Of a stretch of DNA of 36,093 nt, positions 6,947 through 36,093 are shown in pieces (position 1 is the stretch's first letter; the number at the start of each line of letters is the position of its first letter). Made by a program: the position numbers and the translations under genes. This DNA comes from Desulfovibrio sp. Its GTDB lineage: Bacteria > Desulfobacterota > Desulfovibrionia > Desulfovibrionales > Desulfovibrionaceae. Below the pieces are notes generated by a model. It made no database searches. It was not told where the DNA came from and saw only the letters and a list, made by a program, of their open reading frames with translations. Location: NCBI GenBank assembly GCA_031275955.1, contig JAISNZ010000039.1, forward strand, positions 1 to 36,093, read 5' to 3'.

Positions 6947-8071
6947 ATGGGGCAATCCGGCTATATTCGTCCTGAAACACTGCCGGCTTTAACAAGTCTG
7001 CGCTTTATGGCCGCCATGATGGTGGTTTTTATGCATACGTCCAGCGCTTTCGGTTGGGAGTTTATTCCTCGACACTTTATCTTCGGGCTCGGGGTTTCCT
7101 TCTTTTTTATTTTATCCGGCTTTATCCTGACACATAACTATCTGCATAGAAATGTCCCGTTTACCACCTTTATACAAAACAGGTGGGCCAGACTATGGCC
7201 GGCGCACCTTTTGTGGCTTGCAGCTGTCTTTATCCTGCTTCCACCTGGTTGGTGGACCTTTGACGGGCCAGGTCTTTTGAGCAAATGGGTAACACTGGTA
7301 GCCAATATTTTTATGATGCACAGCATTGTGCCAATACAGGACTATTACTTTTCATGGAATGCTGTCTCCTGGAGTATTTCCACCGAGTTTTTTCTGTATC
7401 TCGCTTTTTATCCTCTTTTGAAAAATATCCGGCACACTTGGCGATGTAAGCTTCTCATAACGCTTTTTATTTTTCTCAGTTTGGATGTCATTCAACACTG
7501 GTTCCCAATAACAGGGATGAATATTACCTTTGCGATTCCCCCTGCGCGTGTGTTGGAGTTCTTTCTTGGCATGACGGCATATTTGATATGGGAAAAAACA
7601 CGCGAAGGTAAGCTATGGATTGCTTTTCTCATTACTGCCGTGCCGCTCTTCTTGATGTTGCCAGAGCTAACGAGCTTACTACCTATTCTTTCAAAAGCTA
7701 CTCAATTTATTCGTGTTGGCCTGCTTTGCGGATATGCCGCTCTCGCCTGCCTTATAATCTCCCTTGCCGGCAACCACACACTGGCCCGCATTGTCGGCGT
7801 GCGCCCTTTTGTCTATTTGGGGGAAATCAGTTATTCATTGTACCTCTGCCATCAGGTATTTATCCGCATGTTTTTATCGCAAGGACCGGACGGATTCTGG
7901 GCTTCGTTATCCCCGCCCTTACAGGCGGCACTCTATTTTCCCATTATTTTTAGCGCTTCGTGCCTTTCGTATCATATTGTGGAAATTCCTCTGCGTAAGA
8001 TGCTCAGGAGCATTGATTTTCAAAGATATTTTGGGATTTTTAAGCAAAAAAAGGCATACCACCCTCTGTGA
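6947..8071 (+). CDS. Acyltransferase family 3 (OafA/YrhL-like membrane O-acyltransferase)
   Basis: TSLRFMAAMMVVFMHTSSAF start and multiple hydrophobic segments; FVYLGEISYSLYLCHQ motif typical of acyltransferase_3. ATG follows directly on the upstream TAG. Confidence 0.9.
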   Translation: MGQSGYIRPETLPALTSLRFMAAMMVVFMHTSSAFGWEFIPRHFIFGLGVSFFFILSGFILTHNYLHRNVPFTTFIQNRWARLWPAHLLWLAAVFILLPPGWWTFDGPGLLSKWVTLVANIFMMHSIVPIQDYYFSWNAVSWSISTEFFLYLAFYPLLKNIRHTWRCKLLITLFIFLSLDVIQHWFPITGMNITFAIPPARVLEFFLGMTAYLIWEKTREGKLWIAFLITAVPLFLMLPELTSLLPILSKATQFIRVGLLCGYAALACLIISLAGNHTLARIVGVRPFVYLGEISYSLYLCHQVFIRMFLSQGPDGFWASLSPPLQAALYFPIIFSASCLSYHIVEIPLRKMLRSIDFQRYFGIFKQKKAYHPL

Positions 8072-12252: not shown

Positions 12253-12264
12253 CACCGCATTTAA

Positions 12265-12522
12265 GGAAATGCTGATTTATTCCCTTTGAGGGGGCTTTGC
12301 CCCCTCAAACTCCCCCGGCAGGAGCATCCTGACAGGATGAGTTCGCCCTCGCTGACGTTCGGGACGAACGGCCCCCGCGCCCCCGTTAAGTATTTCAATG
12401 GAATACGACATGAGGGGGTTCGGGGCCGTCCGTCCCGCGCGAAAACGCGGGCGGACAGCATCTGAAACGATATGCCCCCCGGCGGGGTTCAGGGCGGAGC
12501 CCCGATAAATCAGCGCTTCCCT
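12265..12522 (+). repeat. MITE-like repeat, copy A (258 bp, hairpin-rich, terminal inverted repeats)
   Basis: Left end GGAAATGCTGATTTAT and right end ATAAATCAGCGCTTCCCT are inverted and near-identical. Internal perfect 11-bp stem TTTGAGGGGGC-TTT-GCCCCCTCAAA (12285-12309) and CATCCTG-A-CAGGATG. Closely matches the reverse complement of 13567-13757. Confidence 0.85.
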
Positions 12523-12723
12523 AAGAGGAACCGTCACCAGATCAGGTTAAAATCCCGCGCGCTTCCGGCTGCGAAGTGAAAGAAGGGGTCTTACAAAAAA
12601 CTTGCGGATAACATGTTGTTTTGGTAAAGATTTTGATGGTTTTTATCCAGTTTGTGAAGGAGCTCCCGTCAAAGACTGGCGCGGAAGCGCCATGAACTAT
12701 GCCCGGCAAAAAGGCGATCGCGG

Positions 12724-13542
12724 ATGTTGGTTTCAATAATTGTCGCAACATATGGAAGGCGGGCTCCGCTTGAAAAATTTTTTCAAAGTGTGGCGGAACA
12801 ATCATTTCGCAATGTTGAGGTGATTATTGTTGACCAAAATCCTTCTGGATTTCTGGATGACATCATTCTTGCCTACCAGGGTTTTTTCCCCCTGATCCAT
12901 GTCCTCTCCCAAACGGCAAACGCATCCACCGCAAGAAACATTGGCATCGCTCACGCGAAAGGAGATGTTATTGCCTTTCCGGATGACGATTGCCTTTATG
13001 CGCCAGGCGTTATACAGCGTGTCGTTGATGAGCTTGAGGCCAATACGCATTGGAGCGGATTGCTGGTCTCCTGGGCGCAAAGTCCGAAAAAACCACGCCA
13101 CCCCGGGCGCGTGGACCGGGTAACGAGGTGGACTGCTTTTCGTAGGGCTGGAACGCTTGTCCAATTTTATAGGGCATCGGCTATTAACGGTATTTTGTTT
13201 GACCCTGCCCTGGGCCCTGGAGAAAACTCAAAATACGGTTCAGGAGAAGATACCAGTTTTCTCTTAAGCGTTCTGTCCAAAAAGATGTATGTAGCCAAGA
13301 TTCATGATGTGCTGGTGTACCACTTGGAGCCGGACTTCAGTAACCCAGATATGTTTCACCGTGTGCGATCCTATGCGTTGGGGCGCATGCGTTTGCTGCG
13401 AAAACACAAATTTCCGCTCTGGTTCAAGCTGGCCAATGTATTTTACCCTTTGCTCCACATCCCTTTTTGCGGGCGTGATGCTGTGCCTTATCATAAGGCA
13501 ATGTTTGTAGAGAGGTGGAAGGGTTTTTGGGATAAAGAATAA
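12724..13542 (+). CDS. GT2 family glycosyltransferase
   Basis: MLVSIIVATYGRRAPLEKFFQSVAEQSFRNVEVIIVDQNPSG; TARNIGIAHAKGDVIAFPDDDCLYAPGVIQRV. Confidence 0.9.
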   Translation: MLVSIIVATYGRRAPLEKFFQSVAEQSFRNVEVIIVDQNPSGFLDDIILAYQGFFPLIHVLSQTANASTARNIGIAHAKGDVIAFPDDDCLYAPGVIQRVVDELEANTHWSGLLVSWAQSPKKPRHPGRVDRVTRWTAFRRAGTLVQFYRASAINGILFDPALGPGENSKYGSGEDTSFLLSVLSKKMYVAKIHDVLVYHLEPDFSNPDMFHRVRSYALGRMRLLRKHKFPLWFKLANVFYPLLHIPFCGRDAVPYHKAMFVERWKGFWDKE

Positions 13543-13566
13543 GGCCTGCGCACAGGCAATACTTCC

Positions 13567-13757
13567 AGGGAAGCGCTGATTTATCGGGGCTCCGCCCCAA
13601 ACCCCGTCATTTCGTATTCCATTGAAATACTTAACGGGGGTGCAGGGGCCGTTCGTCCCGAACGTCAGTGAGGGCGAACTCATCCTGTCAGGATGCCCCT
13701 GCTGGGGGAGTTTGAGGGGGCAAAGCCCCCTCAAAGGGAATAAATCAGTGTTTCCCT
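13567..13757 (-). repeat. MITE-like repeat, copy B (191 bp), inverted relative to copy A
   Basis: Ends AGGGAAGCGCTGATTTAT ... ATAAATCAGTGTTTCCCT. Reverse complement matches copy A apart from about 10 substitutions and a ~67 bp segment present only in A. Confidence 0.85.
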
Positions 13758-14720: not shown

Positions 14721-14915
14721 ATAAAAGGCAGCCAGTTCAGTTCGCATCCGCATTCCTCCGTGGCCATATTTTCTAAAATTTTTCTAAAAAGTCAAGAACG
14801 GAATGACCCTGGCCTGATCCCGCGCGAGTTGCTTTTGAGAGGAGGGGGTGATATTGACGGTGCCCGCCCGCGGCCGCACGATACTTTTAAACCAAGACGT
14901 AAAGAGAACACGCTC

Positions 14916-15698
14916 ATGGGTACAGTCCGGAACAGCCTCAGCTACAATCTTGCGCTTACCAAAACCATATTCAAGCGAGAATTCAGCGCCCTTTATCGGC
15001 GAACGGCCTTGGGGCCGGTGTGGGCTTTGTTGTCTCCGGCAGCATACCTGGCGGTATTCATTTTTTTTCGGCTGCTTTTTGGCCTTTCCAACCCGGAAGG
15101 CGTGCCCATGCTGCCTTTTCTCTTTTCCGGGCTGACTCTTTGGCTTTTGTTTTCCACAACGCTGAGCGCTGTTTTTCCTTCAATAATTTCCAACGTGTCC
15201 ATTTTGAAAAAAATGCCCGTTTCCCCGTTTGTTTTTGTTTTTGCCGGGGCGTTGGTGCCACTGTTTACTTCCGCTGTGTACATGGTCTTGCTTGAGGTTT
15301 TGCTTATTGTGTATGGGTATGCACCTACCATGCACCATCTGGCAATTCCCCTTGTGGTGATTATGGTACAAGCTTTTGCGCTTGCGCTTGGACTTTTGGC
15401 GAGCACCTTCGGACTGTACCGGCAAGATATTATTCAGGCCTTGCCCACGTTTATTCAGCTCGGCATGTTTGCCACACCCATATTTTTTTCGCCTTCTATA
15501 GTGCCGGAAGCCCTGCGGTGGGTTGTGGATTATAACCCTGTCGCCCAGTGTGTCGGCATGCTGCGCGAGATCATATTTAACGCATCGTGGCCGGATCTTG
15601 CTTCTCTGGGTAAGACAATTGCTGTAATTGTTGTTTTTGGGCTTGTGGCTTTCGCATTTTTTAAGCGCACATCGCGGTATCTGGCGGATCTTTTTTAG
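14916..15698 (+). CDS. wzm: ABC-2 type polysaccharide export permease (Wzm-like)
   Basis: FKREFSALYRRTALGPVWALLSPAAYLAVFIFF and downstream hydrophobic helices; IFFSPSIVPEALRWVVDYNPVAQCVGMLREII is typical of TagG/Wzm permeases; partner ATPase lies nearby. ATG 14916 preferred over GTG 14760. Confidence 0.85.
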   Translation: MGTVRNSLSYNLALTKTIFKREFSALYRRTALGPVWALLSPAAYLAVFIFFRLLFGLSNPEGVPMLPFLFSGLTLWLLFSTTLSAVFPSIISNVSILKKMPVSPFVFVFAGALVPLFTSAVYMVLLEVLLIVYGYAPTMHHLAIPLVVIMVQAFALALGLLASTFGLYRQDIIQALPTFIQLGMFATPIFFSPSIVPEALRWVVDYNPVAQCVGMLREIIFNASWPDLASLGKTIAVIVVFGLVAFAFFKRTSRYLADLF

Positions 15699-15703
15699 CG
15701 GGG

Positions 15704-16402
15704 ATGAACATGAAAGAAAGCTCAGTACCCGGTCATGAGGCTACTCCTTTTAGCTACAAAGAAGACGACCCTGGGTTTAACAAATTTCGCTCGGCGCGTA
15801 TCTGGTCCAACTTTGAGCTGGTACGATTTGCCCATCTTTTTTCGGGCACAGTCTGCAATGTAAGCGCAGCCCGCGATGAAGACAAAGAAGGGCGTTGCTA
15901 CAGGAATTATTTTTCAAACGCATCAAATTATATAACAACAAATCACCGCCAGGACGAGCATACGGACTTTGCGCTTGACCTGGAAGCGGCTCTGCCTGAA
16001 AATATGGCCGGAATATGCGACTGTGTGTTCAACCACACTACGTTGGAGCATGTGTATGAATGCCGCCGGGCTTTTGCCAGCCTCTGCGCGATGTCGCGCG
16101 ATGCGGTGATTGTGGTCGTTCCCTATATTCAACAGATGCACGGCACGCCAGAGCGGTATGCGGATTTTTGGCGGTTCACCCCCTATACGATGCAGCGCAT
16201 GTATGCGGAAAATGGCCTTACGTTGCGCTACTGCTCAGCCAATGGCGCGGAGCGTACATCTATTTACCTTTTTTGTCTTGGTTATCGCAATTCCGCATGG
16301 GACGCCCACATACCTGAGCGCCTGGATATTGCGCTTGATCTGGAGCAACCGTTATATGGCAATGAATATACAAACATAATCGGTGGAAACACCATTCGAT
16401 AA
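15704..16402 (+). CDS. Methyltransferase-like protein with an atypical SAM-binding motif I
   Basis: CNVSAARDEDKEGRCYRNYFSNASNYITTNHRQDEHTDFALDL ... FNHTTLEHVYECRRAFASLCAMSRDAVIVVVPYIQQMH has the class I methyltransferase layout without a clear GxGxG. Confidence 0.5.
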   Translation: MNMKESSVPGHEATPFSYKEDDPGFNKFRSARIWSNFELVRFAHLFSGTVCNVSAARDEDKEGRCYRNYFSNASNYITTNHRQDEHTDFALDLEAALPENMAGICDCVFNHTTLEHVYECRRAFASLCAMSRDAVIVVVPYIQQMHGTPERYADFWRFTPYTMQRMYAENGLTLRYCSANGAERTSIYLFCLGYRNSAWDAHIPERLDIALDLEQPLYGNEYTNIIGGNTIR

Positions 16403-16430
16403 GTCGATATAACCGAGAGCTGGCTCCACA

Positions 16431-17630
16431 ATGCACGAAGACGATACTCCAATAATTGAAGTCCGGGGCTTATGGAAGCGCTATGGCCTGCCCCCTCTGC
16501 TGCCCTGGAGCAAGCAATCGCAAGACGATAGTGCCTATGCCCTGCGCGATATTTCTTTTTCTGTTCCCAGGGGTGGCTCTCTTGCTATTTTAGGGCGCAA
16601 TGGCGCGGGCAAATCCACCTTGCTCAAACTGCTGGCCGGGGTGACCCCGCCAGATCGCGGCAATATTGCCGTGCGGGGCAGCATCTTCCCCATGATTGAA
16701 CTTTCAGCCGGCATGAGCATGGAGCTTTCCGGTCGGGAGAACGCCAAGATTTTGGGCACCATTATGGGCAAGCTTGGCGGGGAGTTGGAAGACCTGCTCC
16801 CCGGAGTGCTCGGATTCAGCGAATTGGGAGACTGGTTCGAGCGCCCGGTATGGCAATACTCCAGCGGCATGCTGGCCCGCCTTGCCTTTTCCATTGCTGT
16901 CAATGTGGACGCGGATATTCTGATTGTGGACGAGGTGCTTGGCGTAGGAGACATCCAGTTTCAAAAGAAATGCCAGCAAGCCATTCAAAGAATACTGGGG
17001 CGAGGCACTGCGTTAATTTTCGTTTCCCACAGTCCCTATCAGGCTGAACGCTTATGCGAGCAAGCCCTTTACATGGAAACTGGAAGTCTAAAAATGATTG
17101 GCACTACTGCAGTGGTTGCCAAGAAGTATCTTCATGATGCCGTTTTGTCACCAACTCTGGAAATAGGTGACGAAGGACTTATTTCAGAAGAACGCCCCGG
17201 TGCGGGGGATATACGAATAACAGCGATAAAAATTAAAGATAGCAATAATACCACTGTAACATCACTAACTACAGGTGACTCTTACACTATTTGTCTTAAA
17301 TATCATGCCAAAGAGTTCATTGAAAAAATGAATCTTCGGATTGACATAAATGACGCGCAGGGAACGACTATTGGCATCCTTGGTATTGATCCGATGGAGA
17401 CCAAGACCACCATCCTACCAGGAGATGGAGAGTTGCGCTGTTTGATTCAAAAATTTCCTTTTTATGGAACTTTTTTTCTGTCAATCGTTCTGAAAAGTAC
17501 TTATCTACTTGACTCTTTGCAAAATGCCTATACTTTTGTTGTTGAACCTACTGACGAAATCCGCATTAAAAGCGGAGGAAAAGGTATGGCGCTTATCGCA
17601 TGTACATGGGAAGGATTTTATGAATTGTAA
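16431..17630 (+). CDS. wzt: ABC transporter ATP-binding protein with C-terminal extension (Wzt-like)
   Basis: Walker A LGRNGAGKSTLLKLL; signature YSSGMLARLAFSIA; Walker B ILIVDEVLGVGD; ~170 aa C-terminal extension in the position of a Wzt carbohydrate-binding domain. Confidence 0.88.
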   Translation: MHEDDTPIIEVRGLWKRYGLPPLLPWSKQSQDDSAYALRDISFSVPRGGSLAILGRNGAGKSTLLKLLAGVTPPDRGNIAVRGSIFPMIELSAGMSMELSGRENAKILGTIMGKLGGELEDLLPGVLGFSELGDWFERPVWQYSSGMLARLAFSIAVNVDADILIVDEVLGVGDIQFQKKCQQAIQRILGRGTALIFVSHSPYQAERLCEQALYMETGSLKMIGTTAVVAKKYLHDAVLSPTLEIGDEGLISEERPGAGDIRITAIKIKDSNNTTVTSLTTGDSYTICLKYHAKEFIEKMNLRIDINDAQGTTIGILGIDPMETKTTILPGDGELRCLIQKFPFYGTFFLSIVLKSTYLLDSLQNAYTFVVEPTDEIRIKSGGKGMALIACTWEGFYEL

Positions 17631-18342
17631 AAAAAGTATGAGCGCTATGGGAAAAAGCCAAAAAATGAATTTAGGCGATATTCCTGCGGAAAGAATTCAA
17701 GTTTATTATTACAATGATGATAATGCACAATTTGATTACGAACTGTATAAAAAAATACAAATAGAAGCGAATATTGCTAAAATTGATAAAACATCAATAA
17801 ATGTAGATGATATAAAAATATTATGCGGATGGTTGAATAAAAATATAAATCCGTTGTTGCATGGACTTTGCCATGGGACACGAGCAGGCATAGAGCAGAA
17901 ACTTTTTACCGAGTATACCGGCGCAGAAGTGCTCGGTACAGATATTTCGCCGACTGCCAGTCAATTTCCTAATACTATTCAACACGACTTCCACGATGTC
18001 AAAGATGAGTGGGTTAATTTTTTTGATTTTATTTTTAGCAATTCCTATGACCATTCTTACAATCTGGAATATTGCATAAATCAATGGATCCGTTGTTTAA
18101 GGGTTGGCGGTGTTTGTATTCTTGAGCATGCCGATGGGCACAGAAATGCAAAAAAAACGGATCCTCTTGGAATTTTATACGAAGACTTGTGTCACTTATT
18201 GAAAACGTGGGGGCAAGATTTTTTTTCTATCAAAAAAATTTTGAACATTCCGCTACCGCCAACGGAAAACCTTACCACGTCTTTTCGGTTCGATAATTTT
18301 AGATATATTATCATTGAAAAAATGAAACCGATGCCATTTTAG
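17620..18342 (+). CDS. Methyltransferase-like protein
   Basis: LLHGLCHGTRAGIEQKLFTEYTGAEVLGTDISPTA ... FDFIFSNSYDHSYNLEYCINQWIRCLRVGGVCILEH resembles a class I SAM-methyltransferase core. ATG 17620 overlaps the wzt stop. Confidence 0.55.
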   Translation: MNCKKSMSAMGKSQKMNLGDIPAERIQVYYYNDDNAQFDYELYKKIQIEANIAKIDKTSINVDDIKILCGWLNKNINPLLHGLCHGTRAGIEQKLFTEYTGAEVLGTDISPTASQFPNTIQHDFHDVKDEWVNFFDFIFSNSYDHSYNLEYCINQWIRCLRVGGVCILEHADGHRNAKKTDPLGILYEDLCHLLKTWGQDFFSIKKILNIPLPPTENLTTSFRFDNFRYIIIEKMKPMPF

Positions 18343-18351
18343 GAAATATAA

Positions 18352-19005
18352 ATGTTCAAAAAAGTATATACGAAAGTTGGTAAAGGATATTCTCGCGATA
18401 AGTTAAAATATTTTGCAACGGACGAGTTTACATTAGACCTCGCTTGTGGGAATAGTCCGCTAAAAGATTATATGCCCAACCGGATTGGATGTGATATTAT
18501 CGATGGGCATGGCGTTGATATTATTGCCGATGCACATGATCTTCCCTTTGAGGAAGGTCATTTTGAAAGGGTATTCTGCCTGGAAGCCATCGAGCATTTC
18601 CATACTCCGAAAAAAGTGATTGCCGAAATAGCGAGAGTGCTCAGGCCAACTGGAAAATTGATTATGACGGTTCCTTTATGCTACCCCGTGCATGAAGCCC
18701 CCAACGATTTCCAAAGGTACACGGAATACGGACTACGGGTTCTTTTGGAAGAACATTTTACTATTGATGAGATAACTCCAATTTTTTCAGAAATGCAAAC
18801 TATTTCTATTTTGTTGCAACGCATTGGCTTTCAGAAAGATATGAGTCGGCTCACGCGCTGGATTATCTGTGCGGTTTCTCATCTTCTCTTTGCATGGGAT
18901 TCCGGCCGATTCAAGCTGAAGGGGCGCCCCTATCAGGATATTGGCAAAACCCGGCCAGGGGTCTTTATGACCTCAAGCTATTTAATGATTGCTGAGCGCA
19001 AATAA
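18352..19005 (+). CDS. Class I SAM-dependent methyltransferase
   Basis: FTLDLACGNSPLKDYMPNRIGCDI ... ADAHDLPFEEGHFERVFCLEAIEHFHTPKKVIAEIARVLRPTGKLIMTVPLCYPVHEAPNDFQRYTEYGL. Confidence 0.85.
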   Translation: MFKKVYTKVGKGYSRDKLKYFATDEFTLDLACGNSPLKDYMPNRIGCDIIDGHGVDIIADAHDLPFEEGHFERVFCLEAIEHFHTPKKVIAEIARVLRPTGKLIMTVPLCYPVHEAPNDFQRYTEYGLRVLLEEHFTIDEITPIFSEMQTISILLQRIGFQKDMSRLTRWIICAVSHLLFAWDSGRFKLKGRPYQDIGKTRPGVFMTSSYLMIAERK

Positions 19006-20130: not shown

Positions 20131-20193
20131 TCGGTTTCAGGTTATAATATTTTCCGCAGGGTAACTCATGGAAGATAAACAGCTTTTTTCATT

Positions 20194-20226
20194 CGGGGCG
20201 GAGCCCCTATAAAGCGGCGTTTCCCT
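20194..20226 (+). repeat. MITE-like repeat end fragment (copy C)
   Basis: CGGGGCGGAGCCCCTATAAAGCGGCGTTTCCCT resembles the right end of copy A (AGGGCGGAGCCCCGATAAATCAGCGCTTCCCT). Confidence 0.6.
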
Positions 20227-21358
20227 GGAGCCGGTACCAGGCGCGGATCAGGCGTTCATAGATGTTTTGGGCCTGGCGCAGGTGGTCCAGGGGGCAGGAT
20301 TCATTGGTGGTATGGGCGGCGGCCGGTTCTCCGGGGCCGAGGATCAGCAGGGGCAGATCGGGCAGGGCGGCGCGCACCGCGGCGGCGTCGGTGAAGTAGG
20401 CGATGCCGGCCACCGCCGGTTCCCGGCCCGCGGGGTCCGCCAGCAGGCGGCGGGTGGCGGCGCACCAGGGCAGGCTGGGGTCGGTCCAGACAGGCGGCAC
20501 GTCCAGGACGGTTGTCAGTTGGACATCCTCCCCGGCCAGGGCGGCGATTTCCCGGCGCAGGGCGGTGTGGTTCTGTCCGGGAACGGTGCGCATATCCAGG
20601 GTGAGCGCGGCCGTGTCGGGGATGGAATTGATGTTCAGTCCCGCGCGCATGGTGGTGAGCGCGGCGCTGCTTTTGCCCAGGACGGGGTGGACGGCTTCCG
20701 GGCGCGGGGCCAGCAGGCGGCAGGCTCCTGGCAGCAGTTTGTCCAGGGCGTTGACGCCTTTTTCCGGCATGGACCCGTGCGCGGCGCGGCCTTTGCTTTC
20801 CAGCTTCAGCCACAGCGCCCCCTTGTGGCCCGCCAGGGGCTGGTTGCCCGTGGGCTCGGCGATGATGCCGGCGCCTGGCCGGCCGAAGTGCCCGGCCGCG
20901 CGCGCGGCGTAAAAGGAGCCCCTGCAGCCCTGCTCTTCGCCGCCGTACAGGTGCAGCACCAGATCCCGCCCTGTCAGGCTGGGGGCCAGACGCAGGGCCG
21001 CGCAGAGGATGGCGGCGACGCCGCCTTTCATGTCGCAGCTGCCGCGGCCGTGGAGCCTGCCGTCCGCCACCAGACCGCTCAGGGGGTCCTTGTCCCAGGG
21101 GGCGTTGCCGAAAGGAACGGTGTCCACATGCCCGCCGAAGAAGAGCGCCTCGCCCGGGGCATCCGGGCTGAGGCGGGCATAGAGGTTGGCTCTGTGCGGG
21201 AAGGGGGGATCATAGCCTTCCAGAACGCAGGTGAAGCCCGCATCCCGCAGCAAATCCGCCATTTCTTCCAGCAGGGGGAGTTCCCCCCTTCCCTCCACGG
21301 TATCGCGGCGCACGAGGCGCTGTGCCAGATCAACAACGTCGGGGACCGCGCGGGACAT
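20207..21358 (-). CDS. M20 family metallopeptidase (ArgE/DapE-like deacylase)
   Basis: ALFFGGHVDTVPFG; LHGRGSCDMKGGVAAILCAAL; LYGGEEQGCRGSFYAAR; GLNINSIPDTAALTLDMRTVPGQ. ATG at 21358 (MSRAVPDVV). Confidence 0.9.
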   Translation of the reverse strand: MSRAVPDVVDLAQRLVRRDTVEGRGELPLLEEMADLLRDAGFTCVLEGYDPPFPHRANLYARLSPDAPGEALFFGGHVDTVPFGNAPWDKDPLSGLVADGRLHGRGSCDMKGGVAAILCAALRLAPSLTGRDLVLHLYGGEEQGCRGSFYAARAAGHFGRPGAGIIAEPTGNQPLAGHKGALWLKLESKGRAAHGSMPEKGVNALDKLLPGACRLLAPRPEAVHPVLGKSSAALTTMRAGLNINSIPDTAALTLDMRTVPGQNHTALRREIAALAGEDVQLTTVLDVPPVWTDPSLPWCAATRRLLADPAGREPAVAGIAYFTDAAAVRAALPDLPLLILGPGEPAAAHTTNESCPLDHLRQAQNIYERLIRAWYRLQGNAAL

Positions 21359-22359: not shown

Positions 22360-22380
22360 TGCCGGTTCCCCGGCTTGAAT

Positions 22381-22480
22381 GACCATTGAAAACGTGTCAT
22401 TCGCTCTGCAAGGATTTGCAAGCAAATCCTTGCCGCGGAACAAGGCTGGCTTTGCCCGCCGCAAAACGACGGGCTGATCA
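22381..22480 (+). repeat. Intergenic hairpin repeat (family 2), copy 1
   Basis: ACCATTGAAAACGTGTCATTCGCTCTGCAAGGATTTGC-AA-GCAAATCCTTGCCGCGGAACAAGGCTGGCTTTGCCCGCC. Perfect 12-bp stem at 22408-22419/22422-22433. Confidence 0.8.
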
Positions 22481-23478: not shown

Positions 23479-23610
23479 TCTGCGGAGGATCGTCAACTGA
23501 AAAATACGGTTTTCGGCTGATTCACGCCGCAACGCGGTGATAACAACTTGACTGCTGCTTTACAGATTTCCATGCGGAAAGCTGTAAAGCTCTTTGCATT
23601 TAGAGCAAAT

Positions 23611-23720
23611 GAACATTGAACATGTATCATTTGCTCTGCAATGATTCACCAGCAAATTCTTGCTGTAAAATGCTTGCAGGCGAACTTTGCTCGCCTGCAA
23701 GCATTTCCTGCGCAAAGGCT
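23611..23720 (+). repeat. Intergenic hairpin repeat (family 2), copy 2, divergent
   Basis: AACATTGAACATGTATCATTTGCTCTGCAATGATTCACCAGCAAATTCTTGC followed by a perfect 16-bp stem AAATGCTTGCAGGCGA-ACTTTGC-TCGCCTGCAAGCATTT (23668-23706). Confidence 0.75.
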
Positions 23721-28815: not shown

Positions 28816-28822
28816 GGCAAAT

Positions 28823-28912
28823 TACCATTGAAAATGTATAAGTCGCGCTGCAAGGATTTGCCCGCAAATTCTTGCGGCGCAACAGGAGCAGACCGGCTGG
28901 CCGCAGGCGGAC
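28823..28912 (+). repeat. Intergenic hairpin repeat (family 2), copy 3
   Basis: ACCATTGAAAATGTATAAGTCGCGCTGCAAGGATTTGCCCGCAAATTCTTGCGGCGCAAC, 10 nt after the CoA-transferase stop. Confidence 0.7.
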
Positions 28913-29993: not shown

Positions 29994-30149
29994 CCGTGTC
30001 AAGCCCCCAAATACCGGACCAGATCAAACGGGAGTTTCCCGGGTTGCCATAGTGTCCTGCGCGCACGCCTGCCGCCTGTTGTTTTCCGCGGGGAATGCCC
30101 CGGGGGAACCCGGCCTTGTCAAAAAAAGAAAAAGGCGTATACAGAAGGT

Positions 30150-30225
30150 GCGCTGTTCTCTCAAGGATTTGCCTGCAAATCCTTGCCGCGGAACAAGGCG
30201 GGCTTTGCCCGCCGCAAGCGGACTG
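30150..30225 (+). repeat. Intergenic hairpin repeat (family 2), copy 4
   Basis: CTCTCAAGGATTTGC-CT-GCAAATCCTTGCCGCGGAACAAGGCGGGC-TTT-GCCCGCCGCAA. Perfect stems at 30162-30172/30175-30185 and 30197-30203/30207-30213. Confidence 0.8.
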
Positions 30226-35434: not shown

Positions 35435-36082
35435 ATGCCCCCCGCTGAAAGAGGATGCCCCATGCCGCCCGCGTCGGAACGGGAGGAGCGCCGGCGCCGG
35501 TTTTTCGATCAGGCCGCCGAGGGCTGGGAGGAACGCCACTATCCCCCGGAAATCCGCGCCCGCCTGGAGCCTTTTCTGGCGCGCCTGGCCACGGCCCCGG
35601 GCCTGACCATTCTGGACGCGGGCTGCGGCCGGGGGATACTGCTGCCCCATCTGCGCCGCCTTGGCGGGCGGGACGCCCGGCTCATCGCCCTGGACGCCTC
35701 CGCCGCCATGCTCAGGGGAGTGGCGGACAAGGACCCTGGGGCTGTGGCCCTGCACGCCCGGGCGGAAAGCATCCCCCTGATCGACGCCTATGTGGACAGG
35801 GTCCTTTGCTTTGCCGCCTTCCCCCATTTTGAGGATCAGGCCGGGGCGGCCCGCGAATTCCACCGGGTGCTGAAGCCCGGCGGCCTCGCCCTGGTGCTGC
35901 ATCTGGCCAGCGCAAAGGCCGTCAACCGCCACCACGAGGACCATCCGGCCGTGCGCGGCGATCGCCTGCCCGACGAAAAAACCATGCGGGATCTCTTCCT
36001 GCGGGTGGGGTTCGTCCGGGTCAGCCTGGAGGAAAGCGCGGACTCCTACTGTTTCTCCGCGGAAAAGGAAGGGAAACGCTGA
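35435..36082 (+). CDS. Class I SAM-dependent methyltransferase
   Basis: LTILDAGCGRGILLPHLRRLGGRDARLIALDASAAML ... VDRVLCFAAFPHFEDQAGAAREFHRVLKPGGLALVLHLAS. Start ambiguous between ATG 35435 and ATG 35462. Confidence 0.85.
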   Translation: MPPAERGCPMPPASEREERRRRFFDQAAEGWEERHYPPEIRARLEPFLARLATAPGLTILDAGCGRGILLPHLRRLGGRDARLIALDASAAMLRGVADKDPGAVALHARAESIPLIDAYVDRVLCFAAFPHFEDQAGAAREFHRVLKPGGLALVLHLASAKAVNRHHEDHPAVRGDRLPDEKTMRDLFLRVGFVRVSLEESADSYCFSAEKEGKR

Positions 36083-36093
36083 TGTCTTTCCTT

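Follow-up and report, generated by a model that had tools for sequence, protein, structure and literature searches.

Two inverted copies of an abundant IS5-type MITE bracket a glycosyltransferase gene in Desulfovibrio, probably as two separate insertions

The window, a stretch of 36,093 nucleotides from Desulfovibrio sp., carries a glycosyltransferase gene that is bracketed by two inverted copies, A and B, of a short repeated element. Both copies belong to a dispersed and abundant family of MITEs, and most probably (probability about 0.88) they are independently inserted members of this IS5-type family, so that the bracket around the gene is coincidental. The features on which this reading is based are located in the window as follows.

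12262..12263, no strand: TA target duplication left of A (from the sequence)
12264..12521, plus strand: MITE copy A, 258 bp, both optional palindromic modules present
12264..12280, plus strand: left terminal inverted repeat of A, AGGAAATGCTGATTTAT (terminal-repeat search)
12505..12521, minus strand: right terminal inverted repeat of A, GGGAAGCGCTGATTTAT (terminal-repeat search)
12522..12523, no strand: TA target duplication right of A (from the sequence)
12724-13542, plus strand: intact GT2 glycosyltransferase gene between A and B, in the same direction as its neighbours
13568..13756, minus strand: MITE copy B, 189 bp, no 69-bp module; CA on its left and TG on its right
20192..20229, plus strand: third copy of the A/B family, an end fragment
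36071..36093, plus strand: fourth copy of the A/B family, a terminal repeat cut by the contig end

The arms of A and B are identical at 152 of 162 positions (94%) and at 37 of 39 positions (95%), a likeness far beyond chance, and 69 bp of A are absent from B. The inverted and closely matching copies described in the initial annotation are therefore real, with coordinates correct to within 1-2 bases. The same applies to its observations that the copies enclose a single intact gene, the product of which was identified as a family 2 glycosyltransferase (PF00535, E=1e-24), and that the neighbouring genes of the locus abut or overlap.

A search of the own genome with the repeat yielded 63 match pieces, of which many are truncated at contig ends. 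The terminal repeat, when as many as 3 mismatches were allowed, matched at 102 places in the same draft, as compared to 1 for the reversed sequence used as control; merging of the matches listed left about 80 sites. Of 14 other genomes of the genus, 11 contained related copies, as compared to just 2 of the 45 genomes searched outside it. The copies are non-coding, 59-340 bp and mostly 147-258 bp long, with terminal inverted repeats of 17 bp. In an alignment of 12 copies the ends and the centre were constant, while two modules of ~40 bp and ~69 bp were optional; the former is found in A and B, the latter in A and not in B. As the second module of A sits between the near-identical short repeats GGGGTTCGGGGC and GGGGTTCAGGGC, the shorter form of B may have arisen by loss of this palindromic module between short direct repeats. 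A different repeat family of ~65 bp, containing the palindrome GCAAGGATTTGC..GCAAATCCTTGC, is represented in the window by four copies (22378-22442, 23608-23672, 28820-28884 and 30131-30195), and similar sequence was seen near a fragment of an IS630-type transposase gene in a genome of the genus (L107).

Complete insertion sequences of the IS5 family, with a length of ~1.2 kb, have the same terminal repeat, GGGAARCRCTGATTTAT, and duplicate the same TA target. Three complete elements of 1200-1212 bp (L352, L354 and L356) possess both ends, TA...TA flanks and an IS5 transposase frame of 355-359 aa. Within the genus, such ends and TA...TA are also seen in decayed IS5 copies at L273, L279 and L282, in genomes G012 (1172 bp) and G014 (760 and 793 bp). 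Among the matches listed, clustering of the frames located inside unpaired ends yielded related IS5-type transposase frames in L182, L184, L192, L222 and L225; the two frames scanned both matched PF05598, that of L222 also PF01609 and NF033581. Because ends and TA target are shared, movement in trans by an IS5-type transposase is most likely for the MITE family. The earlier proposal of a MITE-like element mobilised in trans through AGGGAAGCGCTGATTTAT ends thus gains support by homology to complete IS5-family elements, which share both ends and TA duplication. A full-length insertion sequence with matching ends, which the same annotation had suggested to look for, exists in the three complete elements but was not found in intact form in the own genome. 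An IS5 transposase of this type was not found there either, which counts against the assumption of two insertions, although the genome is a draft of 83% completeness and its contigs break at these repeats. IS630 (PF13358) was also considered as autonomous partner on account of the TA duplication and was rejected, as IS630 loci lack these ends; candidates from a first DDE_Tnp_1 search belonged to other IS groups with other ends.

The A/B family shares with IS5-family MITEs the short and non-coding sequence, IS5-type terminal inverted repeats identical to those of a transposase-bearing insertion sequence, the TA duplication and a high copy number. It differs by its internal palindromic modules, which are present or absent between copies. 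The target duplication was found for A and the family, whereas B itself is flanked by CA...TG. No account of this terminal repeat was found in the literature searched. An exact scan of public genomes for the repeat preceded by TA returned, among the matches listed, records of Pseudomonadota, Desulfovibrio, Treponema and Ruminococcus. The non-coding elements that bear the repeat with TA among the matches listed are short, ~44-336 bp, and come from several phyla, drafts of Treponema and Ruminococcus among them.

The flanks of the copies provide information on how they were inserted. Of 16 two-ended copies in the contigs read, 5 were flanked by TA...TA, and of 59 single ends 33 were flanked by TA, with CA as the second commonest single flank. 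Copy A is bordered by TA...TA, and this target duplication of its own indicates that A was inserted by itself. The CA...TG flanks of B, which were also observed at one other copy (C69), are a second point against two ordinary insertions; we assume decay or an insertion without duplication, and the flanks have probably decayed. With about 80 such sites in the genome, chance alone should produce a close pair. Random placement of 80 sites on 2.2 Mb, under a uniform model that takes account neither of contig breaks nor of gene avoidance, gave an expectation of 3.0 pairs per genome separated by 0.4-1.5 kb, and 95% of the trials contained at least one; four such pairs were observed, the A-B pair included. 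The occurrence of a gene-bracketing pair is thus at chance level.

The initial annotation had described the enclosed gene as more AT-rich than its neighbours. Its GC content of 48.1% is indeed below the 56-59% of the genes directly on either side; as a special mark, however, it does not hold, as six further genes of the cluster show 35-50% GC (6947-8071, 45%; genes within 14760-17630, 48-50%; 17584-18342, 35%; 18352-19005, 43%). We infer that the glycosyltransferase gene just belongs to a set of several low-GC genes in the cluster. The gene at 17584-18342, which reads like a methyltransferase gene as judged from sequence and stands in a cluster with mostly 56-59% GC, points to foreign origin more strongly than does the glycosyltransferase gene. 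The glycosyltransferase protein matched once in the own genome, and its best identity in relatives was 48%. In a neighbour-based comparison aimed at an empty site, an ortholog of the epimerase was not found in the genus and the identity of GT neighbours was only 33-43%; a relative with the same gene arrangement was likewise not found among the genomes compared. In another contig (L147, G001 C169, ~1266-1310) a MITE of the same family seemingly lies inside a GT2 gene homologous to that of the window, with two protein halves matching on either side of the copy.

Two other explanations of the bracket had been offered. According to the one, A, the glycosyltransferase gene and B moved together through the outer ends with a transposase acting in trans, in the manner of TIME-COMP structures (PMC4133298) or MITE-flanked integrons (PMC10969869), in which two MITE copies surround passenger DNA and are known to move it. 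The A-B region resembles this arrangement in that the copies are inverted, their outer ends are intact and the one gene enclosed is low in GC, although the described cases are Tn3-derived or surround integrons. In TIME-COMP units the target duplication encloses the entire unit, whereas the A-B unit has unlike outer flanks, TA and TG, and A is bordered by a TA...TA of its own. Furthermore, no second copy of the unit was found in the own draft or among the relatives compared, and neither a close MITE pair nor a low GC content is unusual in this genome and cluster, respectively. Joint transposition is therefore quite unlikely. According to the other, homologous recombination between the inverted arms would flip the gene against the operon as an ON/OFF switch, a possibility given in principle by arms of 162 bp with 94% identity at a distance of 1.05 kb. 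Exchange of the inner flanks would result in TA/TG at both copies and destroy the duplication of A; as the TA...TA pairing is kept, the present arrangement is most simply the original one. In addition, the longest exact run between A and B comprises just 45 bp, no recombinase was detected among the eight cluster proteins scanned and promoter-like sites in the region do not exceed the number in shuffled sequences (one promoter-like and four terminator-like matches, within the spread of shuffles). We consider such a switch very improbable, and equally so an occasional inversion or excision of the gene by MITE-MITE recombination that would make a surface sugar variable through randomly inserted MITEs. 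Neither an invertible cassette nor a composite unit is thus sustained, the close pair being expected by chance in both cases.

Both copies fold far better than shuffled sequences (z -7.9 and -6.8), as would RNA hairpins that regulate the operon and were conserved for their function. Palindromic MITEs, however, fold well by construction, the copies are dispersed over the genome, many of them with target duplications, and no Rfam family reached threshold, so that this explanation is scarcely credible. An effect of the MITEs on the operon mRNA is nevertheless possible by analogy with the Correia elements of Neisseria, abundant intergenic MITEs which can act in mRNA and for which inversion of the element itself was reported (PMC10969869). 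The A/B family is comparable to these as a group of abundant intergenic bacterial MITEs but differs in sequence; in the Correia case the reported inversion concerns the element itself, whereas for A and B flipping of the gene between two copies was proposed, which is not supported.

For the two separate insertions, the following course appears plausible. An IS5-family transposase (PF05598 and PF01609, NF033581) would move MITE copies in trans, provided by an IS copy that has since been lost or is unassembled in the own draft. A and B would have landed in two gaps beside the glycosyltransferase gene of a mosaic surface-polysaccharide cluster. If transcribed, A and B would fold into strong hairpins and could have a modest effect on the mRNA of the operon.

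An ordinary explanation thereby takes the place of a switch that was attractive but unsupported, and the IS5 family is named as the type of autonomous partner of an abundant MITE family with a terminal repeat present in several phyla. This is of use in annotation and helps to understand why the draft assembly is broken at MITE repeats, and the distribution of one IS5-type end over several phyla is worth a survey.
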